64,000 nt of DNA from Photobacterium angustum (lineage in GTDB: Bacteria > Pseudomonadota > Gammaproteobacteria > Enterobacterales > Vibrionaceae). Of this stretch, positions 5,821-61,389 are shown piece by piece. A model generated the notes under the pieces. The model saw only the letters and a list, made by a program, of their open reading frames with translations. It was not told the DNA's origin and did not search any database. The first letter of the stretch is position 1; each line of letters opens with the position of its first letter. The position numbers and the translations under genes were made by a program. The stretch lies in assembly GCF_002954615.1 (NCBI RefSeq), contig NZ_MSCJ01000003.1, positions 248,001 to 312,000 of the forward strand, in the 5' to 3' direction.

Positions 5821-6039
5821 TTATTTTATTAGAGCAAGATTTACCTTCCCCCTTGCTCTAATAACCTACTGATAAAAAACAAATTCCTTTTAAGTCACAT
5901 ACCTTTTTCACAGCCAGATAACCATACCCTTTCATTTACCTGACATTTGAACGATGTTTTTAATTAACAATATACAAAACACATTCAGTTGCTGAATACT
6001 CGCTATTAAACGAGGCTATTGTTTAACAAGGCTTAGATT

Positions 6040-6315
6040 TTGAAAAGAAAGTACTCTTACTTTCTCTACTTACTGCAACAGCATTTGTTGGCTGTAAATC
6101 ATTACCTATTCGCTCCAATGCAAACATAGCAACCCCTGCAGCAACGTATTGTGTTGAGAATGACGGTCAATGGTTACTTATTGAAAACATGGACGGTAGC
6201 AAAACTGGATTCCGTCGCTTCATGACGGAAGCTAATGTGACGCATGGACATTCCAACGTGGTAACTGTAAAACAAGAGTTGATACTCCATCGTTTACGGT
6301 TCAACACAATAATTG
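6040..6315 (+). pseudogene. Decayed DUF333 lipoprotein gene
   Basis: This stretch aligns along its whole length with the intact lipoprotein gene at 6966-7229. The start codon position reads TTG instead of ATG, and one base is missing about three codons in. The body then reads KVLLLSLLTATAFVGCKSLP (lipobox kept) and ATPAATYCVEN, with another one-base change before an in-frame TAA where the intact gene has a Gln codon. The C-terminal part is still recognisable in the shifted frame (DAWTFQRGNCK). Several independent lesions make this a clear pseudogene rather than a sequencing error. Confidence 0.82.
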
Positions 6316-6355
6316 ATTGTCCAATCGCTCTATTATTAATATCGGAAGGTTAATG

Positions 6356-6724
6356 ATGAAAAAATTACTACTTGTTGTTGGTTTACTGCTTTCAGGCTCT
6401 GTTTTTGCGTTTGGTAATCCAGCATCAGATTTCTGTGTTCAACATGGTGGTCATGTTGATATTCGTACTCCAATGGGTGGCGACGGTGAAAAAGGTTACT
6501 GTGTCTTTAACGACGGTAGCTCATGTGAAGAATACGCATTTATGAAAGGCCAATGTAAGCCTTCAGGTAAAACACATAAACAAAAATTAGTCGACCACTG
6601 TGTTAAAAAAGGTGGATTTGCTACAGGTGATGTATGTAAGTTCGCAAAATGGAATACAACATGTGATCTAGAAGATTTCTATAATCACAAGTGTAACCGT
6701 AAAAAAGGTAATCGCGTTTACTAA
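6356..6724 (+). CDS. DUF333-family cysteine-rich exported protein
   Basis: Small secreted or periplasmic protein. The start at 6356 gives MKKLLLVVGLLLSGSVFA, a signal peptide matching the paralogue at 7261; GGAAGG just upstream is the ribosome site. The ATG at 6353 is also possible. The mature protein has the DUF333 pattern NPASDFCVQHGG...GYCVFNDGSSCEEYAFMKGQC, then a second Cys-rich half (DHCVKKGG...DVCKFAKWNTTCDLEDFYNHKC) that looks like a diverged repeat of the first. All Cys residues are paired in spacing, suggesting disulphides. Function unknown; E. coli members are small heat- or stress-linked envelope proteins. Confidence 0.8.
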   Translation: MKKLLLVVGLLLSGSVFAFGNPASDFCVQHGGHVDIRTPMGGDGEKGYCVFNDGSSCEEYAFMKGQCKPSGKTHKQKLVDHCVKKGGFATGDVCKFAKWNTTCDLEDFYNHKCNRKKGNRVY

Positions 6725-6762
6725 GTGATTAATCTCTTCCCCCTGATTGATCACTTTTTAAA

Positions 6763-6795
6763 AATACCGCTTAACAAGTGTTAAGCGGTATTTTT
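6763..6795 (+). terminator. Rho-independent terminator
   Basis: TACCGCTTAA (6765-6774) pairs with TTAAGCGGTA (6781-6790) around a six-base loop, flanked by A and T runs. It ends the transcript of the 6356-6724 gene. Confidence 0.88.
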
Positions 6796-6965
6796 ATATT
6801 CAAACTGTTCCCCTCTTATTTTCCATTCCTTATAACCTTACTAATAGTCATGTTTTGTCATTTCGCTGACATTCGAACAGTGTTTCAAATGCACAATACG
6901 CCCGAACCATTCACCATGTGAATAGATATACAAAACGATGCCATCGTTAAAATAAGGATTAGATT

Positions 6966-7229
6966 ATGAAAAAGACAGTATTGCTACTTTCTCTTATTGC
7001 TTCAGCCTCATTGGTTGGTTGTAAAACACTACCGACTCAACCAACTGCAAACATGGCAAATCCTGCAGCAACATACTGTGTTGAACATGGTGGCAATTAT
7101 CAAATCACAACGAATAAAGATGGTAGCCAAGCTGGCGTCTGTCATTTCAAGAACGGTAGCCAATGTGATGGATGGGAATATCTACGTGGTGAATGTAAAC
7201 CTGCTGCTGACAAACCAATTTTGTACTAA
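6966..7229 (+). CDS. DUF333-family lipoprotein
   Basis: An 87-residue lipoprotein. The signal MKKTVLLLSLIASASLVGC ends in a good lipobox (LVGC). The mature part is one DUF333 unit (NPAATYCVEHGGNY...AGVCHFKNGSQCDGWEYLRGEC). AAGGAT lies just upstream of the start. It is the intact sister of the pseudogene at 6040-6315 and is followed 31 bp later by another DUF333 gene, probably in the same transcript. The family has no firmly established biochemical role. Confidence 0.82.
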   Translation: MKKTVLLLSLIASASLVGCKTLPTQPTANMANPAATYCVEHGGNYQITTNKDGSQAGVCHFKNGSQCDGWEYLRGECKPAADKPILY

Positions 7230-11691: not shown

Positions 11692-12327
11692 TTATGGTGC
11701 TAATCGATCAATTGTCCATTCTTCACTTTGATCGTGATATAAAAAACGATCATGTAACCGATGTTCACCACCTTGCCAAAATTCAATCGAATTAAACTTA
11801 ACGCGAAAGCCTCCCCAAAATGTAGGTACTGGTACCTCTCCTGCTAGAAATTTTTGTTTCAATTCAAAATATTTCCCTTCCAATGCTTGTCTTGCCGTTA
11901 AGCGTTGGCTTTGCTTACTCGCCCATGCTGCTACTTGGCTTTCTTTTGGACGAGATGAAAAATAGGTAAGCACTTCACGCTTTGATAACGCTTCAACATG
12001 GCCAGTAATATGCACTTGCCTTTCCATCATATGCCATGGGAAATGTAAGCTTATCTTATTATTAATAGCAAGTTGCTGAGCTTTACGACTACCAAGGTTG
12101 GTATAAAAAACAAAACCATGCTCATCAAAGTGTTTAAGTAACACAATACGTTGAAAAGGTTGACCAGATCCATCGACTGTAGCAACAGTCATTGCAGTGG
12201 GATCAGGTAATTTTGCCTCTACTGCTTGCTTTAGCCATCGTTCAAATAAGACTAGTGGATCATTTGGTAAATCATCTCTTCGTAGCCCTCCTTTTGAATA
12301 CTCCCTGCGAATATCTGATAATTCCAT
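11692..12327 (-). CDS. pdxH: Pyridoxine/pyridoxamine 5'-phosphate oxidase
   Basis: FMN-dependent cytoplasmic oxidase making pyridoxal 5'-phosphate from pyridoxine or pyridoxamine 5'-phosphate. Start 12327 ([20 protein letters not shown]) has a GGAG site eight bases upstream. Family features: [61 protein letters not shown], the C-terminal [25 protein letters not shown] signature and the terminal RLAP. Length (211) is normal. Confidence 0.96.
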
Positions 12328-12598
12328 TTTTATCTCCATAAAGTATAAATGATTTATTCTCTACAATATTGTGACTCACTTTTGGAAGCAAACACTATTT
12401 TCTTATGAATATTAATCTTGTTTGCAAAAACAAATAGACACATCTATCGAATTTCAACAATAAATAACAAAGAGTACAGTTGCATGATGCGAGTTTTGAT
12501 AAATTAGACTCATACAAAATCAATGATTTAGTCAGCATACATAAGATATCTCTCTTTTACTGTTTATGTTGGCTAGTACTCACCTTGGTGCTCAGATT

Positions 12599-14551
12599 AT
12601 GACACTCTTTAAACGACAAATAATAAGTATTACAACACTCATGTGTTCGGTACTTAGCATTTCTGCAGGTACGCAGTTATATACTGGCTATCATGTAATC
12701 AGTGATCAACATATAACAACAGCACATGAAGATATAAATCGTGCGCTTGCTACATTACCGGACAAATTATCCATTCTTGATAGTTTAATAATTTCACGAC
12801 AGCAAGAAGTACAACTTGTTGATACGCTAAATTATTTATTCCCACCACAGCAATATAATCATGCATCACTGTTATTTGCCGATTCGACACCTTTAATACG
12901 AATAGATAATAACCGTGATATCAATAATGTTCCACAATGGTTTCAATCCTTAATTAAGATCCCAGAACATTTTGAAAAAAGAATAATAAATAATGATGAT
13001 TTTGATGTAGGTATCTTAGAGCTGAGCGCTTCATCTCGCTGGGCATATACAAAATATTGGCAATTATTTAGCAACACTCTTATTTCTCATTTACTACTCA
13101 TGTTTCTTGGCGGCTTTGCGATTTACTTTATTAGTAAAAAGCATTTCACATCGTTACGCAAGCTAACAAACCGTGCATATAACATAGATAATCTTAACCA
13201 AGCACCTTTAGCATTGCCTGATGAATCAGATATTAAAACAATTGTAAGAGCATTTAATAAGCTTAGTTATCAGTTAGATGTGAATTTTAAGAGCCAAGCA
13301 AACGAAGCTGTAAAACTACGAGAACAAGCTTACCTTGATCCTATCTCTGGATTAGGCAATCGTAGCTTCTTTATCCATCAAATTAGCTCTTGGTTAGATG
13401 AATCACATAAAGGCGGATTAGCGCTAATCCAAACGACTTTAATTAGTGATTATTATGAGCAGGAAGGCTATCAAGCGGGTGATAAACTGATAAAGCAGAT
13501 CGCAGCACGTTTAAATGATGTGATTAGCTATAATTACACCACTATAGCACGCTTATCTCGTGATGAATTTGCCATTCTTATCCCTAACCTATCTTCTGAA
13601 AAGTTAGAATTACTTGGCAAAATGGTACTAAAAATATTTGATGATATCGTTAATAATTCAAAACTAGTCAGTCCATCAACCACAGATATTGGTTTAGTTT
13701 ATAACGAAGCACAAATTACGCCGAGTCAATTATTAACACAATTAGATAACGCTTTAACACAAGCAAAGCTTACTCCTCATAAATCCATTGCTTTAATAAA
13801 AGATCCTAATAGTCATAGCAGCTTAGGTAAACAACAGTGGAAACAATTACTGGAACAAGCAATTAATGAAGATTTATTTCAATATAAATTTCAGCCTGCA
13901 ACATTAGAAAATAAAAGTGTTTATCATTATGAAGTATTCACCGCGATACAAAAAAATAAGAACTTTTATTCTGCAGGCCAGTTTTTAGGTGCCATCGAAG
14001 ATTTGAAGATAGGTAGTTGGTTTGATCGACATGTCATTGTTACGATAGTTAACCGACTTAATGCAGATAGAACAATAGGTCCATTTGCAATTAACATCAC
14101 CAACAGCAGTATTGGCGACCCTAGTTTCACTCGCTGGTTGGATAAACTATTGAGTAATAATACGCAGATAGCCTCTCGATTATTTTTTGAATTACAAGAA
14201 ATCAGTTGTATCAGAAACACAGATGCGACAAGCCTGTTGTGCAGCATTATAAAACGCTACCATTTTGGCGTAGGAATAGATAACTATGGACGTCATTTTC
14301 AATCTTTAAATTACTTAAAAGAAATCAATCCTGACTACGTAAAAATCGACTATGCATATACTTATCAGTTAAATGACCAAACAAAATCAGCTGTGTTATC
14401 TTCTATATGCCGAACAGCACATAGTTTAGATATTAAGGCTATTGCTACTCGCGTTGAAACAGAAACACAGTTAGAGCGATTATCTGATTTGTTCGTAAGT
14501 GGTTATCAAGGCTTTATTACTGAAAAATATACACAGCTAGAAACGATATAG
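12599..14551 (+). CDS. LapD-like c-di-GMP receptor with degenerate GGDEF and EAL domains
   Basis: Inner-membrane protein of the LapD/MoxY architecture. The start at 12599 (MTLFKRQIISITTL) matches the usual LapD beginning; a start at 12566 is possible. Order: transmembrane helix; periplasmic domain (about residues 35-155, containing VPQWFQSLIKI as in LapD proteins); second transmembrane helix (LLLMFLGGFAIYFI); HAMP-like linker; GGDEF domain with the active-site motif degraded to SRDEF; EAL domain with EAL replaced by EVF and the DDFGTG motif replaced by DNYGRH. Both domains are therefore probably catalytically dead and the EAL domain may only bind c-di-GMP. No lapG-type protease or large adhesin gene is nearby. 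Confidence 0.82.
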   Translation: MTLFKRQIISITTLMCSVLSISAGTQLYTGYHVISDQHITTAHEDINRALATLPDKLSILDSLIISRQQEVQLVDTLNYLFPPQQYNHASLLFADSTPLIRIDNNRDINNVPQWFQSLIKIPEHFEKRIINNDDFDVGILELSASSRWAYTKYWQLFSNTLISHLLLMFLGGFAIYFISKKHFTSLRKLTNRAYNIDNLNQAPLALPDESDIKTIVRAFNKLSYQLDVNFKSQANEAVKLREQAYLDPISGLGNRSFFIHQISSWLDESHKGGLALIQTTLISDYYEQEGYQAGDKLIKQIAARLNDVISYNYTTIARLSRDEFAILIPNLSSEKLELLGKMVLKIFDDIVNNSKLVSPSTTDIGLVYNEAQITPSQLLTQLDNALTQAKLTPHKSIALIKDPNSHSSLGKQQWKQLLEQAINEDLFQYKFQPATLENKSVYHYEVFTAIQKNKNFYSAGQFLGAIEDLKIGSWFDRHVIVTIVNRLNADRTIGPFAINITNSSIGDPSFTRWLDKLLSNNTQIASRLFFELQEISCIRNTDATSLLCSIIKRYHFGVGIDNYGRHFQSLNYLKEINPDYVKIDYAYTYQLNDQTKSAVLSSICRTAHSLDIKAIATRVETETQLERLSDLFVSGYQGFITEKYTQLETI

Positions 14552-14555
14552 ATTA

Positions 14556-14568
14556 TTTACACTGTAAA
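14556..14568. repeat. parS2 site
   Basis: TTTACACTGTAAA, a palindrome apart from the central base, matching the chromosome-II ParB2 target NTTTACANTGTAAAN. It begins five bases after the LapD-like stop codon. Confidence 0.85.
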
Positions 14569-14582
14569 TATTGCTATTCTTG

Positions 14583-14610
14583 AAAACCAGTACCTCAGTA
14601 CTGGTTTTTT
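14583..14610 (+). terminator. Rho-independent terminator of the LapD-like gene
   Basis: AAAACCAGTA / TACTGGTTTT stem with a six-base loop and a T run extending past the second arm, downstream of the first parS2 site. Confidence 0.88.
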
Positions 14611-14871
14611 TATATCTAGTTATTATCTAGCTGATTCACCATATAAGATCCAAGGCGCTATCATTACTTTTAATTTAATGAAAACAAGTTGAGAGTTCTG
14701 ACTAACTTTACTCACTCTAATCAAGGCTTGAATTGGGCCGATAAAATAAGTTTATTTTCAACTAAGTACGTATCGATATTTTAATCGTTGACCACTTTTT
14801 CAGAACTTTTAGATATTTAAAAATATCTCATTTTCGTTAAAGCAAACTTCTAAATATTGGCTCGCCATTTA

Positions 14872-14884
14872 TTTACAGTGTAAA
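14872..14884. repeat. parS2 site
   Basis: TTTACAGTGTAAA, exact match to the parS2 core; 20 bp before the ACCATCT minisatellite. Confidence 0.85.
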
Positions 14885-14903
14885 TGCACCACTTCCACTT
14901 TTC

Positions 14904-15078
14904 ACCATCTACCATCTACCATCTACCATCTACCATCTACCATCTACCATCTACCATCTACCATCTACCATCTACCATCTACCATCTACCATCTACCATC
15001 TACCATCTACCATCTACCATCTACCATCTAGTATCTAGTATCTAGTATCTAACATCTAACATCTAACATCTAACATCT
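14904..15078. repeat. Heptanucleotide minisatellite, 25 units
   Basis: 175 bp made of exactly 25 seven-base units: 18 copies of ACCATCT, then 3 of AGTATCT, then 4 of AACATCT. The variant units are grouped rather than mixed, which points to recent local expansion by slippage. No reading frame of interest. Confidence 0.97.
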
Positions 15079-15116
15079 AAAAAATAATAATAAATAATTA
15101 ACCATCATTCATATTG

Positions 15117-15163
15117 TTTACAGTGTAAATACTCGTTCTCAATTTGAATATTTACACTGTAAA
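15117..15163. repeat. Two parS2 sites
   Basis: TTTACAGTGTAAA at 15117-15129 and TTTACACTGTAAA at 15151-15163. Both keep the full palindromic arms. They lie between the two minisatellites. Confidence 0.85.
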
Positions 15164-15387
15164 TCACAAATAAGCACTGGATTGCATATTGTTCATAACG
15201 ATATTTAACTTAAACCTAATTAGACAGTTTAGTAATTACGTTAGTATCCAACCTTTCAATTAAATGAGTATCAGCTATCTCTTCATACAGACACGATTAA
15301 ATATAAAAGCAATTTTATCGCTGAAAAAAATAAGCACTATCCTACGGTCACAATAAAATATTCAAGTGAAAGTTATGGCGAGGTGCC

Positions 15388-15499
15388 AAGAAGTAAGAAG
15401 TAAGAAGTAAGAAGTAAGAAGTAAGAAGTAAGAAGTAAGAAGTAAGAAGTAAGAAGTAAGAAGTAAGAAGTAAGAAGTAAGAAGTAAGAAGTAAGAAGT
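15388..15499. repeat. Heptanucleotide minisatellite, 16 units
   Basis: 112 bp of 16 perfect copies of AAGAAGT, followed by a partial unit. The unit length equals that of the array at 14904-15078 but the sequence is unrelated. The reverse strand reads as a leucine-rich repetitive frame, which is not a credible gene. Confidence 0.97.
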
Positions 15500-15520
15500 A
15501 AGAAAATAATAATTGGATAA

Positions 15521-15587
15521 TTTACAGTGTAAAGTGAATATACAATTTACACTGTAAATAAAAGAGAGAAACAATTTACACTGTAAA
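15521..15587. repeat. Three parS2 sites
   Basis: Sites at 15521-15533 (TTTACAGTGTAAA), 15546-15558 and 15575-15587 (both TTTACACTGTAAA), with start-to-start spacing of 25 and 29 bp. They lie between the second minisatellite and the tmcA stop codon. Confidence 0.87.
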
Positions 15588-15613
15588 CAGTACTCCCCCG
15601 CTCTGAACTAACA

Positions 15614-17707
15614 CTAGATAAGATTCTCGCGGACAAATTTACGCAGAATGTTTTCAGCTTGCTTGCGTCCAGTAAATTTGAACGAAGAGATAACATCAGT
15701 CCAAGCTTGGCGCTGCATCACTTTTGCTATAGCAAAAAACAATTCTTCATTTCGAGTACAATCATCACTTAGTAAATAAGATGATAATCTTGTTTCAATA
15801 CTTGCAACCACATAATCATAGCCTAACGCACCCAAACAAAAGCCATCAAGTTGAGACTGAATAAAGCGTTCAGAAAGTTGATAATCAATTGAATGACTCT
15901 TCTTATTTCTATATAAGCGAAGAAATAACTCAGGCGCTAGCTGTTTAAACTGTTCAACTCTTTGAGCGCTAAAACTCGCAGAAAATAAAAGCGCTGCATC
16001 ATTAAACCAAATGTCATAACAGTTAGGATTGAATACCTTAACGCAGAGTAAAGAATGCAGACTACTGGCAGCATCTTTATTTATGCCTAAACGAATAGGA
16101 GTAAAACCTACGTTATGCCAAAAATTCACTAGCTCATCGGTGGCACCAAAACTTGTACCAATATAGTCAACGCCGCATGCCAAAGCGTACTGCTCAGCAC
16201 GAGATAATAATTGCTGACCAATTCCCTTGCGATGGAGTACAGGTAAAACAGCAATACGTAATATTCGATAACATGACTGTTTCGCTGCTGCTTTTAAACC
16301 TAGATGTGCTGCAATAGATTGCGCTAATAAATGCCCTTTAATTCTACGCTGCCCTAGCATAACCGCTTGTGCTAAATCATCATCAAACCCACCTTCTTCG
16401 ACTAACAAGCAACAACCAATTACGTGATGTTCAGAGCGAGCAACTAATACATGTTGGGTAGAATCATCAAGAAGTTGTTGAACGTCATTAGGAGATGTTT
16501 GGTAATGGGCATGAATTAATAGACCCACAATTTGAGACAATAAATTGTTGTTTGTAACAAGCTCTGCCTTCGTTACGAGTTCATAAGAAATCGTTGCACC
16601 AGATAATGTCTCTAATGTTGAGAACTCTGCATTAAGTAGTAATGCATTAAAAACCCACTGCTCTAACGGGTCGTTTACTTGCCAGCGAATAGGTTGCTCA
16701 ATATGAACCGCTTTCCATTGTGGCATTTTCTTATTTAGTGCTTGCTTAAATTTAATTTCAAAACCACGCCCGGTTCCTTCATAGCCATGAATCGTTGAGG
16801 CAAATACTAAACGATTATGTCTATTTAATAACGAGATCAAGGTATCACCAGGAATAGCTGCAGCTTCATCGACAAGGATAAAATCATATTTATCTGCAGC
16901 GTCACAAATAACATCTTGCGCAATAAAATGCAGCTCACTCCCTTGGCATAATAATCGATGAGGATGAGTGGTATCAGCGTCAATCAAGCGTTGCTGCGCA
17001 TGTGAAAAAACGGTAGATGCACAAGCAAAAGAAGGAGACGTCACTGCAATTTTCATTTTTCGCGCAAGCATTAACTCTGCAGCAGCGATACCTAACGCAG
17101 ACGATTTACCTCGCCCTCTATCGGCCGATAAAACTAACGGACGCTTTCTATGACCAACAGCAACTTTAATAATGGCATCAACCGCATCCTCTTGTTGCTG
17201 CGTTAAACAAAATCGAGGGGCACTTGAGGCAAAATCTACATTACTATGTGACTGACAAATCCAAGGTTTAAATACTGGAATATTAGTATTTTGGCTTAAC
17301 GTAATCACATCAGGTTCAGCACACAATAATGATAGACGCTTCATAAATGGAGAAATATTAGCATCACATTTCCAACCAAGAGGTAAGAGTAATAACATTA
17401 CCCCACCCCCTTTTATTGTGCCAGACAACGCACCAATAACGTTCGCATCAATACCGTGATGAGCGTTAATAGCAATACAATCCGTCTCTTGTCCCAACCA
17501 CTTTTTCGCTGTTTTAAAATGACAATGTACTATTGATTCAGGCGCATCTTCACCCGCCCAAAGCATCGCTGAATAGTGTTCAGAAAATAATTGCGTGATC
17601 TGAGTAGCCCAGCGAAGATCACCTTCAACAATAACAAGTCGACGGCAATTAGCAGCAAGTGAGTCCGTATGAAGCTGAGAAATAAATGTAGGAAGAAGTG
17701 ATAACAT
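15614..17707 (-). CDS. tmcA: tRNA(Met) cytidine acetyltransferase TmcA
   Basis: Makes N4-acetylcytidine at the wobble base of elongator tRNA-Met using acetyl-CoA and ATP. Domain order: N-terminal DUF1726 domain; RecA-like helicase module with Walker A near residues 195-203 (ADRGRGKSS), Walker B ILVDEAAAIP near 275 and STIHGYEGTGRGF; GNAT acetyltransferase (GCCLLVEEGG, RILRIAVLPVLHRKGIGQQLL, GTSFGATDELVNFW); C-terminal tRNA-binding tail. Length 697 is slightly above E. coli TmcA. It lies between parS2 and parB2, as in other vibrio chromosome II maps. Confidence 0.95.
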   Translation of the reverse strand: MLSLLPTFISQLHTDSLAANCRRLVIVEGDLRWATQITQLFSEHYSAMLWAGEDAPESIVHCHFKTAKKWLGQETDCIAINAHHGIDANVIGALSGTIKGGGVMLLLLPLGWKCDANISPFMKRLSLLCAEPDVITLSQNTNIPVFKPWICQSHSNVDFASSAPRFCLTQQQEDAVDAIIKVAVGHRKRPLVLSADRGRGKSSALGIAAAELMLARKMKIAVTSPSFACASTVFSHAQQRLIDADTTHPHRLLCQGSELHFIAQDVICDAADKYDFILVDEAAAIPGDTLISLLNRHNRLVFASTIHGYEGTGRGFEIKFKQALNKKMPQWKAVHIEQPIRWQVNDPLEQWVFNALLLNAEFSTLETLSGATISYELVTKAELVTNNNLLSQIVGLLIHAHYQTSPNDVQQLLDDSTQHVLVARSEHHVIGCCLLVEEGGFDDDLAQAVMLGQRRIKGHLLAQSIAAHLGLKAAAKQSCYRILRIAVLPVLHRKGIGQQLLSRAEQYALACGVDYIGTSFGATDELVNFWHNVGFTPIRLGINKDAASSLHSLLCVKVFNPNCYDIWFNDAALLFSASFSAQRVEQFKQLAPELFLRLYRNKKSHSIDYQLSERFIQSQLDGFCLGALGYDYVVASIETRLSSYLLSDDCTRNEELFFAIAKVMQRQAWTDVISSFKFTGRKQAENILRKFVRENLI

Positions 17708-17765
17708 ACAATAACCTGAACAACATGATTGTTGAGATCATAACATGTGAAGCAAAATTGAGATG

Positions 17766-17797
17766 AAAAAAAACCACGCTAGAATGCGTGGCTTTAA
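17766..17797 (-). terminator. Terminator of the parAB2 operon
   Basis: On the minus strand CCACGC and GCGTGG form a stem with a six-base loop, followed by eight T residues. It sits between the parB2 stop and the tmcA start. Confidence 0.85.
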
Positions 17798-17807
17798 TAA
17801 AAATTGT

Positions 17808-18782
17808 TTATTTTAAATAATCATTTAAATAATCAAGAATGTCACTGACTTGGCGATCGCTCATTTTTTTCAAACGTAACTGTAACTTGTCACCATCGCG
17901 GGTATAACTTACTTTACCTTTAATAAGCTCTTGAGAACTTGGTTTTTCAACAACAGCTTTCGGCTGAAGTGCATCCCCCATCTCTTCAAGTTTAACCGTT
18001 ACTTCACGAGTAATTCGGCTGATCCCTTGTGCTTTAATTGTTTTCCAGAGTGCCGTATTTTCTGAACTTAACTCTTCAATCATTTTTTTCTGTTGTTCAG
18101 CATCTAAGCCAAAAAACACACGGTGAAGTTTAACAATCGTTGGACGACCAAGCTCACCAACGCTAGGATAAGCCATAAGCAATTCCATCGGTAAACTTGC
18201 CGCTTTTAAAGCACCACTCACCAGGGCTTCACTGCATTGTAAATAACGCGCTAACTCTTTTTGATCCGCAACTTTTCCGCTATCAAGAAGATGTTGCATC
18301 TCTTTACCACGCTCAAATAAACTTAACGGTTTATGCGCGTTAGCGACGTCAGATAAAAATTTAGCGTGTTCAGTATTAATGCCTTTAGCAACATAAATTA
18401 AGAAATCTTTATGGGCTAAAATACAAGACATACGACGGCGGCTACCGTCTAAAACTTCAATACGACCATCATCTAACCAACGACCAACAGCTGGATATTG
18501 CTGTCCGCGATCTTTCAATGTCGATAATATATCAGCGAGTGCGTGCTCATTTAAAAATGCTTGTTCACGTGCATTCTCAGCAAAAACAGTGGTTTTAGTA
18601 CTGACATCGTCTGCATTAATTTTGATTAATTCAAACGCAACTGTTTCTTCACCCGCTACCGCTAATTCTATTACTGCTGCTTTATCGCGTGCAGCTGTTT
18701 GTGCTTCTGTTACATTGGTCGCGCGACGTTTGTCCGCTTTACCGAACAGACGAGCATTAAGATCAGTTGTTTTAATAGCCAT
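17808..18782 (-). CDS. parB2: Chromosome II partition protein ParB2
   Basis: Centromere-binding CTPase-type ParB. 324 residues: an N-terminal ParB/Srx-like region around VGRWLDDGRIEVLDGSRRRMSCI (about residues 100-123) with the GSRRR motif; an HTH region (LARYLQCSEALVSGALKAASLP) near residues 178-200; and a C-terminal dimerisation part (KLQLRLKKMSDRQVSDILDYL). Its expected target is the TTTACANTGTAAA palindrome, found nine times in this window. It follows parA2 with a seven-base gap and uses a GAGGAG ribosome site inside the parA2 end, so translation is probably coupled. Confidence 0.93.
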   Translation of the reverse strand: MAIKTTDLNARLFGKADKRRATNVTEAQTAARDKAAVIELAVAGEETVAFELIKINADDVSTKTTVFAENAREQAFLNEHALADILSTLKDRGQQYPAVGRWLDDGRIEVLDGSRRRMSCILAHKDFLIYVAKGINTEHAKFLSDVANAHKPLSLFERGKEMQHLLDSGKVADQKELARYLQCSEALVSGALKAASLPMELLMAYPSVGELGRPTIVKLHRVFFGLDAEQQKKMIEELSSENTALWKTIKAQGISRITREVTVKLEEMGDALQPKAVVEKPSSQELIKGKVSYTRDGDKLQLRLKKMSDRQVSDILDYLNDYLK

Positions 18783-18789
18783 CTGTTAA

Positions 18790-20004
18790 TTACTCCTCGT
18801 TAAGATTTGCCCAGTGGCTATGCATAACGCGTTCTAGTTCTAAACCAACGCGTTGAATAGCCTCTTGAGCGGTTGAAAGGGTCTTTTTACCCCCTTCAAA
18901 CTCTGCTGCCGTTAAGTCAAATACCGTACTATAGGTATCAGCACAAGTTTCAAATGCACGGCTACGTGGCACAGTGGCCATCATAACTTGATCACGAAGC
19001 AAGTAATTCATTTCAGTTAACACTGAAACTTGCTTCTTATTATCGTCTTCAAACATTGTCGGCATTAAACGAATAAATTCTAAACCATGCCAATCTTCAG
19101 GGAACATCTCGTAAACAGTCGGTAAATGCTGGAAAAAGTTAACGGTAGATGCCCAGTCAAGACGTTTTGCAGCACAAGGAATGATTAACGCATTAGATGC
19201 ATACATTGCATTCCATACCAGCGGGTCGATATGAGGACCCGTATCAATCATAATAATGTCGAACTCATCTGCAATTGGATCAATTACTTTTTCTTTGAGT
19301 AAACGAACAATATCAAGGTCTTGATTTACAGCAAGATCTTGCCATGCATCGGCATTAAACATTGCATCTTCAGGGAAAGCCGCTATCGTTTTAAGGTTAG
19401 GATATTGGGTTGGCATAACCACATTATCTTTTAAGAAATCTTTATCCATTTCAACGCCATCAGGTACGTTATCAAGCATAACGTCAACAGCTGAATAAAT
19501 CGTTTCTTGTTTTCCCACACTTATAAGAGGGTTTAAAAACAGACGTAATGAACCCTGTGGATCAAGGTCGATAAGACAAATACGATAACGTTTATCTAAA
19601 TCTAATGCTAAACAAGCAGCGATATGAACCGCTGTCATTGATTTACCCGTACCACCTTTCTGATTCTGAACATTCACAACCCAAGGTTTACGGCCAGCAC
19701 CTTCTCTCTCATGAAAAGCCGGTTTTTTTGCCGCTTTCATCAGCTTATGGGCTTCTTCTAATGTAATAGAGTAGTGATTAGCATTATTTTTCGTAAATTG
19801 ATGACCATCAGCCTCCATACGAGAAATTGCATCATCAAGTTTACGTCTTGTTAACCCTGAGCGTGTTTCCATTAAAGCTTTAGACATCGGAGGGAATAAC
19901 TCCTCACGACGCTCTTCTAAAACAATCTCAATTCGGTCCGCTTGTACTTGTTTTGTTTGCTCAGCAATATTGAGCAAATTTTGGATCGTCTGTTCCCTAT
20001 TCAT
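18790..20004 (-). CDS. parA2: Chromosome II partition ATPase ParA2
   Basis: Walker-type ATPase that moves ParB2-parS2 complexes. Start 20004 (MNREQTIQNLLNIAEQTKQ) is chosen from similarity to the V. cholerae ParA2 beginning and a GAAGAG site upstream; the longer frame to 20061 adds an unlikely hydrophobic extension. N-terminal HTH-like domain (about 1-105), then deviant Walker A NQKGGTGKS (about 114-122), LIDLDPQGSLRLF, Walker B IIMIDTGPHIDP, and the long chromosome-II-type C-terminus. First gene of the parA2-parB2 operon, next to the origin. Confidence 0.95.
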   Translation of the reverse strand: MNREQTIQNLLNIAEQTKQVQADRIEIVLEERREELFPPMSKALMETRSGLTRRKLDDAISRMEADGHQFTKNNANHYSITLEEAHKLMKAAKKPAFHEREGAGRKPWVVNVQNQKGGTGKSMTAVHIAACLALDLDKRYRICLIDLDPQGSLRLFLNPLISVGKQETIYSAVDVMLDNVPDGVEMDKDFLKDNVVMPTQYPNLKTIAAFPEDAMFNADAWQDLAVNQDLDIVRLLKEKVIDPIADEFDIIMIDTGPHIDPLVWNAMYASNALIIPCAAKRLDWASTVNFFQHLPTVYEMFPEDWHGLEFIRLMPTMFEDDNKKQVSVLTEMNYLLRDQVMMATVPRSRAFETCADTYSTVFDLTAAEFEGGKKTLSTAQEAIQRVGLELERVMHSHWANLNEE

Positions 20005-20210
20005 TATCACTCTTCGCCATGATGATAGACTGAGCAATATTGTACAGCAAATATAAAACATAACAATAAAAGGCTGAACAATCAGTGTGACATCAATCTA
20101 AAGTCAAAAAGCTTTTTTTTTGATAAAAGCAGATATAAGACCATTATTTGAACATTATTTAGCGTTAACAATGTGATTAACTACCCTAAATAATAGATAG
20201 ATTTAAAGTG

Positions 20211-20647
20211 TTACGGTGTCACAACTTTACAATGTAAATTGATTTTAGCCGGATATTTACAGAAGCATGAGAAAAATACGCTAAGTTACGGGAGATGTTA
20301 TTTCAATTTCAGATCATCCTAAAATTGAACAATAAACCATAAGATCTAACGATATGATGAAATCAATCAATTTCATAGCCATTTCATTCAAATAATTAAG
20401 AAAGAACAGAAAAAGTCAGATCTCATCACTGAAAAGGTAAAAATGAATGAGCAAAATCTTGATCATCGTTCCGAGAAAATAACGACGATCATGAAAAGAT
20501 GATCAAGTGTGATTACGGGTGATTTAAAACAGAACTTAAAGGCGATATTAGATCATATTTTTAGGAAAAATGATCAAGGTAAAAAAGGGAAAGCAGCGGT
20601 TTACAAGGATAATTACGGAAGCATGATAGAAAGGTGATAAGTTACGG
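20211..20647 (+). repeat. Five degenerate repeats with a TTACGG core
   Basis: TTACGG occurs at 20211, 20286, 20513, 20613 and 20642, always on the plus strand and mostly preceded by G or A and AT-rich sequence. The copies fall only in the parA2-side half of the origin. They may be the core of inhibitory 39-mer-like RctB sites; the assignment is a guess from position. Confidence 0.4.
20226..20238. repeat. parS2 site inside the origin
   Basis: TTTACAATGTAAA, exact match to the parS2 core, 10 bp after a TTACGG repeat. ParB2 bound here could influence RctB sites; that is known for one V. cholerae parS2 site and inferred here. Confidence 0.85.
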
Positions 20648-20928
20648 TGAATGTAGGTTCAATAAGGGTTTAGCTGACAATATTCCCCTTTGAACTTGTC
20701 TAAAAGAGCAATATTGAATGAAATGGCGAAATAATTGAAATGCAGATTCATTTACTTGATCATTTTTCCCAATATCAAACAGTAAAAAAGCACTTCTTTA
20801 GCAACATTCAGAATCAATGTAATGTGAAATAATAACTATGATAGCAATGATAGCTTTGAACCTTACTTGAAAAAGTGAATATTATTTAAACAAAAGGACT
20901 CGAACGGCACTTACATGATCATTGTTCC
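20460..20928. repeat. Scattered RctB-type iterons, regulatory half of oriII
   Basis: Plus-strand copies: 20460-20472 (TGATCATCGTTCC), 20757-20769 (TGATCATTTTTCC), 20916-20928 (TGATCATTGTTCC). Minus-strand copies: 20493-20505 (TGATCATCTTTTC) and 20564-20576 (TGATCATTTTTCC). Spacing is irregular, unlike the regular array. Such outlying sites regulate initiation in V. cholerae. Confidence 0.75.
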
Positions 20929-21000
20929 AAGTAAAAAGACCTCAATAAACGAACTTTTCAACGTGGAATGAAGTATCAATCAGTATAGAGAAACTATTCC

Positions 21001-21009
21001 TGTGGATAA
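21001..21009 (-). promoter_or_regulatory. DnaA box
   Basis: TGTGGATAA is the reverse complement of TTATCCACA, the perfect high-affinity DnaA box. It is 28 bp before the first regular iteron. V. cholerae oriII also needs a single DnaA box at this place. Confidence 0.88.
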
Positions 21010-21036
21010 CTCTGTGAGTAAGCATTTAATCTATTA

Positions 21037-21164
21037 TGATCATGCTTTCAATTGAATGTTGATCATCGTTTCATACTACAGATGATCATGCTTCCAATGC
21101 TATGATGATCATGTTTTCAATCAACTGTTGATCACACTTCCGATAAAACCATGATCATAGTTCC
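21037..21164 (+). repeat. Array of six RctB iterons, 23-bp period
   Basis: Copies start at 21037, 21060, 21083, 21106, 21129 and 21152, exactly 23 bp apart and all in one orientation, so they lie on roughly the same face of the helix. Consensus TGATCAT(N)2TTCC; the second-last copy is TGATCACACTTCC. Every copy contains a GATC Dam site; RctB binding to such 12-mers in V. cholerae requires Dam methylation. Confidence 0.93.
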
Positions 21165-21330
21165 ATAACGACACTTTTTTATCTTCTTTTAAAACATAGT
21201 GTTACCTTGTAAAATAAATCCAGATCATTAGATCAGTTAATCAAATAGATCAGAATTAATCATAAAGATCAGTATTAAAAATCTTTAAATAAAAAACTTT
21301 ATTTATTGATCTTTTTCTATTAATCTTTGC
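21165..21330. other. AT-rich unwinding element with six ATCA repeats
   Basis: After the iterons the sequence becomes very AT-rich. ATCA occurs six times at 21224, 21232, 21240, 21249, 21259 and 21268 (8-10 bp apart). ATCA repeats of this kind in V. cholerae oriII are bound as single strands by RctB during opening. Confidence 0.72.
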
Positions 21331-21361
21331 GGAAAGATGATGAATCTACGGCTAGTGATAA

Positions 21362-23362
21362 ATGAAACCACCTCGTAATAGTGAAAATACCCCAATTGAA
21401 AAAATATTGATCGAAGCCCCTAGATCGCACAAAGATGGTCATTTATTTTTGATCCATTCAAACCTTGTCGATTGGCTTCCTCAATACCAACATTTTAAAG
21501 GGGTGACCAAAAGTATTATTGAATTGCTCAATATTATTTCGCTACGTGGTTTATCAAGCAAAGATGGTTATGTATCAACAACTGAACTTGTTGAAGCAAC
21601 GGAAGGTCAATTAACGCGAGCTGCAATTCAACAACGTTTACGTGCAGCTGTGAGTGTTGGTTTATTTAATCAGCAACCTGTAAGGTTTGAAGAAGGCTTA
21701 GCAGGTAAAACCATGCTGCATCACTTCATCAATCCATCTTTGCTGATCTCTCAATTAGGCACTGGTAGTTTACAATCAGACCAATTTAAAGAAAAAGAAA
21801 AGCAAAAACGTTCTAAAGCATTAGCACAAAATCATGTTAATCGACGTTTACTGACTGAACACGGTTTAGGTACACCACCAAGTATGCCTGATGAAGCTGA
21901 TCAAATTGTTGTTTCCCCAACCAGTTGGGCAGGGATCATTGATCAAGCGTTAGCGCCACCGAGAACTAAAAAAAGTTACCAAAAATCAATGGTTGCGATC
22001 AGTGGCACTAAAGCGATCATTGAGACAAGATCATCAAAGTCGATCATGACGGTGGATGATCTAATGACATTGTTTGCGTTGTTTACCTTAACGGTTCAAT
22101 ATCACGATCACCATATCGCAGATTACGAAATTCAAGCGCGATCTATGGCAAATAAGACGCCAGTCTATATCACTGATATCTTGGCTTTACGAGGTAAAAA
22201 AGACAGTGGTCCAGCACGTGATTCTATTCGAGAAAGTATTGATCGTATTGAATTTACTGATTTTCAATTACACGAACTCACCGGTCGTTGGCTAAGCGAA
22301 AATATGCCTGAAGGGTTTAAGAGTGATCGTTTTCGTTTTATTGCTAGAACGATCACTGCTTCAGAAGAAGCGCCTCAAGAAGGGGAAGATGGTGAGATCA
22401 GGATCAAGCCTAATTTGTATATTTTGGTGTGGGAACCTTCATTTTTTGATGAACTACTAACTCGCGATTACTTTTTCTTGTTCCCTCCTGAAATTTTACG
22501 TCAGCATACGTTAGTGTTTCAGTTGTATACTTTTTTCCGTAGTCGTATGTCTCGTCGTGTTAATGATTCGATGCTTTTAAGTGATTTAAATCAAAAGCTT
22601 GCTAGAAATATTGAATGGCGACGTTTTTCTTCTGATCTCATTCGAGAACTGAAAAAATTAGCTGAAGGAAAAGTAACAGAAACGATCTTTGCGGTGAATT
22701 TATGGGGATATCATTTAACGATCAGTGCTGAAGAGCCTGATAAACGTTACACAGATTATCGTATTGATATTAAATGTGATGCTGATGAAGTGATCCGATA
22801 TTCACGTGCTAAAACGACCAATGAAGGTAAGCGTACGATGGCACCAACAATGCCAAACCCGTTACGTAATGAGATCATGCCAAAGCAAGAATTAGAACAA
22901 TTATCCGCCATTATTGATGGTGAGTTTGAACCGATTCAGCGAAAGGCTCCGCGTCCGAAAGGTCGATTAGGACGTCGTATTAAGTTGCGTAAGCATCTTG
23001 TTGAGATTAATGCAGATGAATTAACGATTGTGTTATCTAAATATACCTCACCAGAAGCGCTCCAACGAAGCATAACGGCTTTATCTGCAATGACTGGTCA
23101 TCCATCATCAGTTATTACTGAAGAGTGCCACGGATACTTAGAGAAGCTAGACTGGTTATATGTTTCTGGTCAAAAAGTCAGTTATGAAACCTTAAGTCGT
23201 ACCGTTGAGTTATATAACAGTCGACAAGACGAACGTCATTTATCGATTGAACGTTTAATTTCGGGCTTGGCTGTTAGACGAAAAGTCTGTCAACTTGTCC
23301 ATGAAGGCCATATTAATGAGCAAGTTTTAAAAGCACTTGATGATGTCGCCAAAGGCATTTAA
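21362..23362 (+). CDS. rctB: Chromosome II replication initiator RctB
   Basis: Origin-specific initiator of Vibrionaceae secondary chromosomes. 666 residues against about 658 in V. cholerae, collinear throughout: SHKDGHLF and QHFKGVTKSIIELLNIISLRG near the N-terminus, TRAAIQQRLRAAVSVGLF winged-helix region (about 80-105), RTKKSYQKSMVAISGTKAIIETRSSKSIMTVDDLMTLFALFTLTVQYHDHH in the middle, TGRWLSENMPEGFKSDRFRF, the EWRRFSSDLIRELKKL helix, and a basic C-terminal part (RPKGRLGRRIKLRKHLVEINADE). It is divergent from parA2 across the origin. RctB sites upstream suggest autoregulation. Confidence 0.98.
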   Translation: MKPPRNSENTPIEKILIEAPRSHKDGHLFLIHSNLVDWLPQYQHFKGVTKSIIELLNIISLRGLSSKDGYVSTTELVEATEGQLTRAAIQQRLRAAVSVGLFNQQPVRFEEGLAGKTMLHHFINPSLLISQLGTGSLQSDQFKEKEKQKRSKALAQNHVNRRLLTEHGLGTPPSMPDEADQIVVSPTSWAGIIDQALAPPRTKKSYQKSMVAISGTKAIIETRSSKSIMTVDDLMTLFALFTLTVQYHDHHIADYEIQARSMANKTPVYITDILALRGKKDSGPARDSIRESIDRIEFTDFQLHELTGRWLSENMPEGFKSDRFRFIARTITASEEAPQEGEDGEIRIKPNLYILVWEPSFFDELLTRDYFFLFPPEILRQHTLVFQLYTFFRSRMSRRVNDSMLLSDLNQKLARNIEWRRFSSDLIRELKKLAEGKVTETIFAVNLWGYHLTISAEEPDKRYTDYRIDIKCDADEVIRYSRAKTTNEGKRTMAPTMPNPLRNEIMPKQELEQLSAIIDGEFEPIQRKAPRPKGRLGRRIKLRKHLVEINADELTIVLSKYTSPEALQRSITALSAMTGHPSSVITEECHGYLEKLDWLYVSGQKVSYETLSRTVELYNSRQDERHLSIERLISGLAVRRKVCQLVHEGHINEQVLKALDDVAKGI

Positions 23363-61376: not shown

Positions 61377-61389
61377 TTTACAATGTAAA
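61377..61389. repeat. Solitary parS2 site
   Basis: TTTACAATGTAAA, identical to the origin copy at 20226-20238. It lies 2 bp from the stop codon of the rof-like gene, about 46 kb from the main cluster. Confidence 0.78.

Follow-up and report, generated by a model that had tools for sequence, protein, structure and literature searches.

Genes and sites at the locus

The window, i.e., the whole stretch of 64,000 nucleotides of Photobacterium angustum DNA that was analysed, represents positions 248001–312000 of contig C3 (1.62 Mb) in a four-contig assembly. C3 was taken as chromosome 2, because of the partition and rctB genes which it carries. Two tandem arrays are situated in the gap between a pair of convergent genes, an EAL gene on the forward strand and tmcA on the reverse strand. 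The features of the region are given in the order of their coordinates:

12566–14551, forward strand: GGDEF-EAL gene with a LapD/MoxY-type N-terminal domain, left convergent neighbour (open reading frame and domain search)
14556–14568, no strand: parS2 site 1, TTTACACTGTAAA (pattern search, as for all parS2 sites below)
14582–14609, forward strand: intrinsic-terminator-like hairpin behind the EAL gene, the sole one found in 14300–15900
14872–14884, no strand: parS2 site 2, TTTACAGTGTAAA
14904–15079, no strand: array 1, 7-bp tandem repeat (TRF: 25.1 copies, score 282)
15117–15129, no strand: parS2 site 3
15151–15163, no strand: parS2 site 4
15388–15504, no strand: array 2, AAGAAGT (TRF: 16.7 copies, 100% matches, score 234)
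15521–15533, no strand: parS2 site 5, first of the right-hand trio
15546–15558, no strand: parS2 site 6
15575–15587, no strand: parS2 site 7
15614–17707, reverse strand: tmcA, tRNA(Met) cytidine acetyltransferase-like, right convergent neighbour (Pfam above cut-off; NCBIfam TmcA below cut-off)
17808–18782, reverse strand: parB2, ParB/RepB/Spo0J family (TIGR00180 above cut-off)
18790–20061, reverse strand: parA2, ParA-type ATPase (AAA_31 above cut-off, HTH_54 below cut-off)
20226–20238, no strand: isolated parS2 between parA2 and the origin repeats
21028–21165, no strand: repeats of about 23 bp with TGATCATG cores before rctB, called origin repeats by their position
21362–23362, forward strand: rctB, chromosome-2 replication initiator (PF11826, PF18622)

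The encoded ParB2 is 100% identical to those of P. angustum ATCC 25915 and of Photobacterium sp. Ph5. On the tmcA side, the scanned range of 14300–15900 contained no intrinsic terminator. A search of positions 12000–22000 against Rfam gave four matches, all under the gathering score. A sub-threshold match to the V. cholerae sRNA MicX (14459–14613, forward strand; 31.9 bits with a gathering score of 75, E 5e-4) lies at the 3' end of the EAL gene and ends behind the terminator of that gene.

The parS2 cluster

Perfect TTTACANTGTAAA palindromes, which we take to be parS2 by applying the 15-bp consensus, were present seven times within 14556–15587, and the sites at 20226 and 61377 bring the total of the window to nine. 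This compares with an expectation of 0.06, and none of 100 shuffles reached nine. The genome contains 11 perfect sites in total, every one on contig C3; those lying singly away from the cluster are at 61377–61389 of the window and at positions 236550 and 1503136 of the contig. With one mismatch allowed, 37 places were found genome-wide versus 38 for the mirror pattern, i.e., not above the mirror, and it is therefore the perfect sites and their clustering which stand out. TRF listed no array adjoining the site at 61377, and none is present at 20226.

The cluster is about 5–6 kb distant from the origin repeats and rctB, and parA2, parB2 and rctB are its neighbours. Of the 65 rows compared (see below), 63 have a parS2 at most 1.1 kb from the end of tmcA; the short contigs L061 and L072 showed no parS2 in the sequence covered. 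Judged by its sequence, this is the parS2 centromere cluster of a Photobacterium chromosome 2, with predicted ParB2 sites. An earlier note on this DNA had placed the cluster in a bacterial partition locus, and the adjoining parB2, parA2 and rctB genes support a partition locus of chromosome 2. The arrangement resembles ParABS2 of V. cholerae in its palindrome, in having parAB2 next to ori2 and rctB, and in a single parS2 that lies between parA2 and the origin, with the others a few kb off; the position of the site at 20226 is similar to that given for V. cholerae parS2-B (PMC3688505). It differs in that seven sites occur within about 1 kb and are split by tandem arrays. For V. cholerae, 10 consensus parS2 sites were reported, most of them near oriCII, with the nearest neighbours of parS2-B kilobases off (PMC3141006, PMC3688505), and parS2 was described there as restricted to vibrio and photobacteria (PMC3141006).

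The two 7-bp arrays

Array 1 consists of 25 full heptamers arranged in blocks (18 ACCATCT, 3 AGTATCT, 4 AACATCT) and contains 65 C and 3 G on the forward strand. Array 2 consists of 16 full AAGAAGT units and a part unit, contains 33 G and no C on the forward strand, and abuts the right-hand parS2 trio; it is this array whose place is kept across a clade of relatives. Both are non-coding and composed of near-identical tandem units, as are bacterial minisatellites or long simple sequence repeats (SSRs, VNTRs). Pattern search, TRF and the unit map thus confirm the original description of a parS2 cluster with two 7-bp arrays (25 and 16 full units) between convergent genes; the block-wise homogeneity of the units also supports the expansion by slippage which had been proposed.

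Three-unit patterns of either array, with up to two mismatches, had no match elsewhere in the genome, and for both units an origin as copies of a family dispersed in the own genome was therefore rejected. Likewise, no parS2 half-site was present in any array of the gap, in window or relatives, the units having at least 5 mismatches of 12 to parS2; additional ParB2 sites were rejected for this reason, and on their letters the arrays are not ParB2 sites.

Comparison with relatives

The comparison comprised 65 rows with one genome per species, namely the window, 52 loci from a ParB2 scan of genome contigs, and 12 further ones; arrays were called with all repeat periods allowed, at three or more copies and a score of at least 50. 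In one clade of 18 rows (damselae, angustum/lucens and phosphoreum groups), 17 have an array directly beside the right-hand parS2 group, and in the 18th, L044, the assembly ends inside a 13-bp repeat. The unit measures 7 bp in seven rows (window, L037–L041, L198), 13 bp in nine (L042, L043, L045–L050, L219) and 8 bp in one (L052, P. damselae). In 16 of the 17 rows the array ends 3–27 bp from the right-hand parS2 group; in L038 the distance is 123 bp, with a run of N between. The 18 rows form one branch of the ParA2+ParB2 tree (SH-aLRT 93, or 96 for the 17 rows without P. damselae; the tree is from a quick search with SH-aLRT support only). Of the 47 rows outside the clade 45 were usable, L061 and L072 being too short. 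In these 45 Photobacterium and Vibrio rows, which have parS2 by tmcA, no such array was found in the 1.8 kb left of tmcA, with the exception of a weak 8-mer in L065 (3.9 copies, score 62; 451 bp from a parS2).

Array length within the clade ranges from 53 bp (L040) to 693 bp (L219, in a seven-contig assembly), the copy numbers of L038, L042, L045 and L046 being lower bounds due to a run of N or a contig end which cuts the array. Five genomes of the angustum group carry 16.7, 11.7, at least 8.9, 18.6 and 7.6 copies of AAGAAGT, a variation among relatives like that of a VNTR. The blocks of identical units, together with this change of copy number, point to slippage and unequal exchange. Array 1 was found only in the window, L037, L038 and L039 among the 14 clade rows which cover the left side; L040 has a short remnant-like stretch at its place.

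Some of the earlier expectations have to be modified by these results. Nothing sets the 7-bp length apart, as units of 8 and 13 bp occupy this gap in relatives and heptamers appear to be the commonest long SSRs in the surveys cited below; heptamer length as the key feature was rejected once these other arrays had been found. The variation in array length which had been suggested among strains was seen here in a between-species comparison, in which copy number differs between related genomes. A minisatellite in a partition locus had been called unusual; the right-hand array is not peculiar to the P. angustum genome, its place being conserved in the clade of 18 rows.

The units themselves may be related. 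Right-hand arrays have AAGAAGT in the angustum group, GAGTATT and then TGAGCAG in P. lucens, and GAGTATT/GAGTAAT and then AGCAGTA in genome G020; by eye, GAGTATT, GAGCAGT, AAGCAGT and AAGAAGT look like stepwise changes in one frame. The unit of P. damselae, rotated to AAGAAGGT, can be read by eye as AAGAAGT plus one G, and the 13-bp units as 7+6 (GGTTGTT+GGCTGT); in L050, part of the array consists of the 7-mer by itself. On these grounds all arrays may share one ancestor; the 7-, 8- and 13-bp arrays may also be separate births. When the 13-bp unit was sought in 52 genomes of the genus, five matched, each only at the parS2 gap or at contig ends within the gap. Searches of plasmid records with the window, L052 and L049 found no copy of the gap; the six records which matched the window did so only in the parA2-parB2 part.

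The assemblies of five of the 18 clade rows are interrupted at the arrays, L042, L044, L045 and L046 ending in them and L038 having runs of N in both. In genome G029, contig C46, which carries the parB2 gene behind row L046, has a 13-bp array at both ends; this suggests that the assembler cut a circular chromosome open within the array.

A partition locus with uninterrupted 7-bp repeats is known from pSM19035, the parS sites of which consist of 7–10 such units in a row, bound by a ribbon-helix-helix ParB (PMC9499535). The heptamers considered here could by analogy be binding sites of a second centromere protein. This appears extremely improbable and is largely refuted by the turnover: sequence and length of the unit are replaced among clade members with 84–100% identical ParB2, whereas the pSM19035 unit is itself the ParB site. 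Moreover, the encoded ParB2 belongs to the ParB/RepB/Spo0J family (it matches TIGR00180) and not to the ribbon-helix-helix type, and its predicted sites are the separate palindromes. In pSM19035 the array of the partition locus is thus the binding site; here an array devoid of predicted binding sites persists inside a chromosomal centromere.

Probable gene loss and spacing of the parS2 groups

In P. profundum (L053), P. indicum (L051) and P. galatheae (L066) a gene of 558–576 codons for a FapA/DUF342-type product, recognised by eye from the protein, separates the two parS2 groups, and in L053 and L051 a small gene lies beside it. The array-bearing loci L049, L052 and L041 have no FapA-like gene between the groups. 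From this comparison of three outgroup and three clade loci, the array probably occupies the place from which a gene was lost.

As the earlier note had supposed, the arrays alter the spacing of parS2: the left and right groups are 178–856 bp apart, measured between their starts, in 14 of 18 clade loci, namely those which cover both groups (the value for L038 includes the run of N), and about 2.7 kb apart in L053 and L051. A selected spacer, parting the two groups for bridging or looping with some length needed and the sequence irrelevant, would fit the observations that parS2 groups flank the array in all 14 of these loci and that a gene parts them in L051, L053 and L066. We regard it as very unlikely, since no preferred length is seen, either within the clade or towards the 2.7 kb of the outgroups.

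Short-unit arrays elsewhere in the genome and family

Background was sampled in 60 stretches of 20 kb from both large contigs (1.2 of 4.89 Mb). No 7-bp array with a score of at least 50 was present in them; at three or more copies and a score of at least 60 there were eight arrays, none with a 7-bp unit. Twenty stretches of 20 kb from three relatives contained nine such arrays, two of them 7-mers (scores 64 and 84; G028), and nine more stretches (G038, G051) contained three, one being a 7-mer of 6.9 copies in G038 (score 96). Among the arrays of relatives was a 9-mer with a score of 144 and no open frame of more than 69 codons across it; the background also includes a 15-mer array, possibly coding, with a score of 286. 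Short-unit arrays are thus not confined to the centromere, and large ones outside long open frames are rare.

Arrays of AAGAAGT occur in 24 of 329 genomes of the family, versus three for the mirror pattern. Five of the 24 are the angustum-group genomes with the array in the parS2 gap; from 17 of the other 19 genomes 19 loci were read (2.6–5.5 kb per locus), none of which had a parS2. Several of these Vibrionaceae arrays (L179–L197) overlap the TAA by which an open frame is terminated, as though gene ends had seeded them.

With respect to persistence, a control 9-mer array (L203) was retained, at 5–18 copies, by seven of 10 phosphoreum-group orthologs; of the three orthologs which lack it, one breaks off after 105 bp. 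It is absent from all 10 other hits, paralogs among them. Two control 7-mer arrays are kept in one of 18 genomes (one more has a different 7-mer, score 50) and in two of 15; another control array was left out of this comparison, since its gene occurs in only two of 18 genomes. Persistence within a subclade is therefore not special to parS2 arrays, and persistence as proof of function was rejected in view of the L203 9-mer. Among the four arrays followed, only the parS2 array spans the entire clade of 18 rows.

A further 40 Vibrio loci were inspected, at least three of which repeat genomes of the first ParB2 scan (the genus name rests on the V. proteolyticus member). They contained two arrays of three or more copies, and 39 of the 40 had no array near parS2. 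In the remaining one, L322, GAAGGTT is repeated 9.4 times within a parS2 cluster, 5 bp from a parS2. As an independent parallel, one case in 40 is a hint and no proof. L322 has retained a FapA-like gene left of its cluster, so gene loss was not the trigger there.

The closeness of arrays to parS2, i.e., the short distances in 16 of the 17 clade rows and the independent case of L322, would be expected if the ParB2-parS2 complex destabilised DNA, replication past dense ParB2 promoting slippage and arrays being reborn beside parS2. We consider this distinctly unlikely, because parS2 sites are generally without arrays: in L051 and L053–L088 no array with a score of at least 60 lies within 400 bp of any parS2 (that of L065 is the nearest), and neither the other Vibrio loci nor the site at 20226 has one.

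Base composition and transcription

Both arrays could be inward-facing, rut-like Rho-loading sites, which would act as transcription insulators and shield the ParB2 domain from convergent transcription; only a C-rich, G-poor, unstructured transcript would then be selected, leaving unit sequence and length to drift. Read from the tmcA side, array 2 has 23 C and no G per 78 nt, and array 1, read from the EAL side, has 34 C and no G. Among 2,390,760 segments of 78 nt (1.2-Mb sample, both strands), 0.009% reach the C-minus-G value of array 2 and none that of array 1. Right-hand arrays have more G than C on the forward strand in all 17 clade rows having one, as does the GAAGGTT unit of L322; the transcript of the arrays is predicted to be unpaired, and the lack of an intrinsic terminator in the scanned range on the tmcA side would also be in accordance with such a role. 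The required profile is thus present, but any G-free array of short units yields it, and the sign is inherited, hence there are only two to three independent data points. The 45 non-clade rows have no tract of excess C at this place, their median of 9 equalling that of random 300-bp stretches versus 24 in the 17 clade rows; a Rho/rut insulator as the ancestral function of the place is therefore not supported. On balance, insulation by the arrays appears unlikely.

Origin and maintenance of the arrays

Eukaryotic centromeric satellites are tandem repeats which keep their place, while sequence and length of their units turn over. The likeness to the present arrays, in kept place and unit turnover, is an analogy only, since here the centromere protein has sequence-specific sites of its own. 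Nevertheless, a satellite component of the centromere may be conceived, kept beside parS2 for its physical character (insulating or spacing) with the unit free to change; the maintenance of the place through an 18-species clade, with units of 7, 8 or 13 bp, and the Vibrio parallel would be in line with it. This seems rather unlikely to us.

The explanation which we favour, and which appears somewhat probable though by no means certain, is that of a long-lived and fast-evolving satellite inside the parS2 cluster, grown by slippage, born in a gap left by gene loss, and tolerated. The ancestor of the damselae-angustum-phosphoreum clade would have lost the FapA-like gene (in some outgroups accompanied by a small gene) between the two parS2 groups. 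A tandem array would then have been born in the gap, against the right-hand group, and since then have lengthened, shortened and exchanged its unit via replication slippage and unequal exchange; array 1 would be a second and younger birth within the angustum group. The arrays determine how far apart the left and right parS2 groups lie, and this spacing could drift because ParB2, when occupying the locus, would spread over kilobases. For V. cholerae it was reported that ParB2 spreads across the origin and that single parS2 sites are non-essential (PMC3688505, PMC3141006), which makes tolerance of a variable spacer plausible. Against tolerance, an array in every readable member of the clade is more than plain neutrality predicts, and the clade-wide array taken together with that of L322 hints at a locus-specific cause. 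The arrays probably represent tolerated repeat slippage, but they could be a spacer or insulator aiding the centromere.

Heptanucleotides were found to be the most abundant class of long SSRs in most bacterial genomes surveyed, for which a link to the polymerase contact length was proposed; known examples are GGGAATC in Xanthomonas, GGGGA(C/T)T in Nostoc and TAACTGA in Beggiatoaceae, 7-bp tandem arrays like the present ones and mostly intergenic (PMC4679880, PMC4692102). In Xanthomonas, most heptameric arrays were described as lying between the same genes in two species, with very variable length and sequence (PMC4692102), so that there is a precedent for an array position which is maintained while its content changes. 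In these three groups one unit family is dispersed over many genomic loci, whereas the units considered here occur at one place, in a centromere, and relatives within Photobacterium differ even in unit length. Among the literature matches listed, which leave most subscription papers outside, there was no description of a position-conserved array inside a chromosomal parS cluster.

The clade provides a natural comparative series, with arrays of 53–693 bp and 178–856 bp between parS2 groups, by which one may ask how far the spacing of ParB sites and the DNA between them matter for segregation. The arrays are also a candidate typing locus, besides being a break point in five of 18 assemblies.

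Other observations: In all six phosphoreum-group loci which cover that side (L043, L047, L048, L049, L050, L219), a longer perfect inverted repeat is built around the second parS2 of the left group, its arms reaching 6–10 bp past that site. The letters of the arms vary among species, both arms being altered together, and a T-rich tail follows most of them; this parS2 may double as an intrinsic terminator of the EAL gene. Similar inverted repeats with a parS2 core are present in L070 (13-bp arms) and, at another parS2, in L063 (9-bp arms). In G020 (L198, reversed, about 5850–7190) an IS-like insert of about 1.3 kb, recognised by eye, lies between the first and the later parS2 sites of the gap. 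Finally, in two Photobacterium genomes (L183, L184) arrays of the unrelated heptamers TTCTTAC and AGCCAAT share an intergenic gap with no parS2 nearby.
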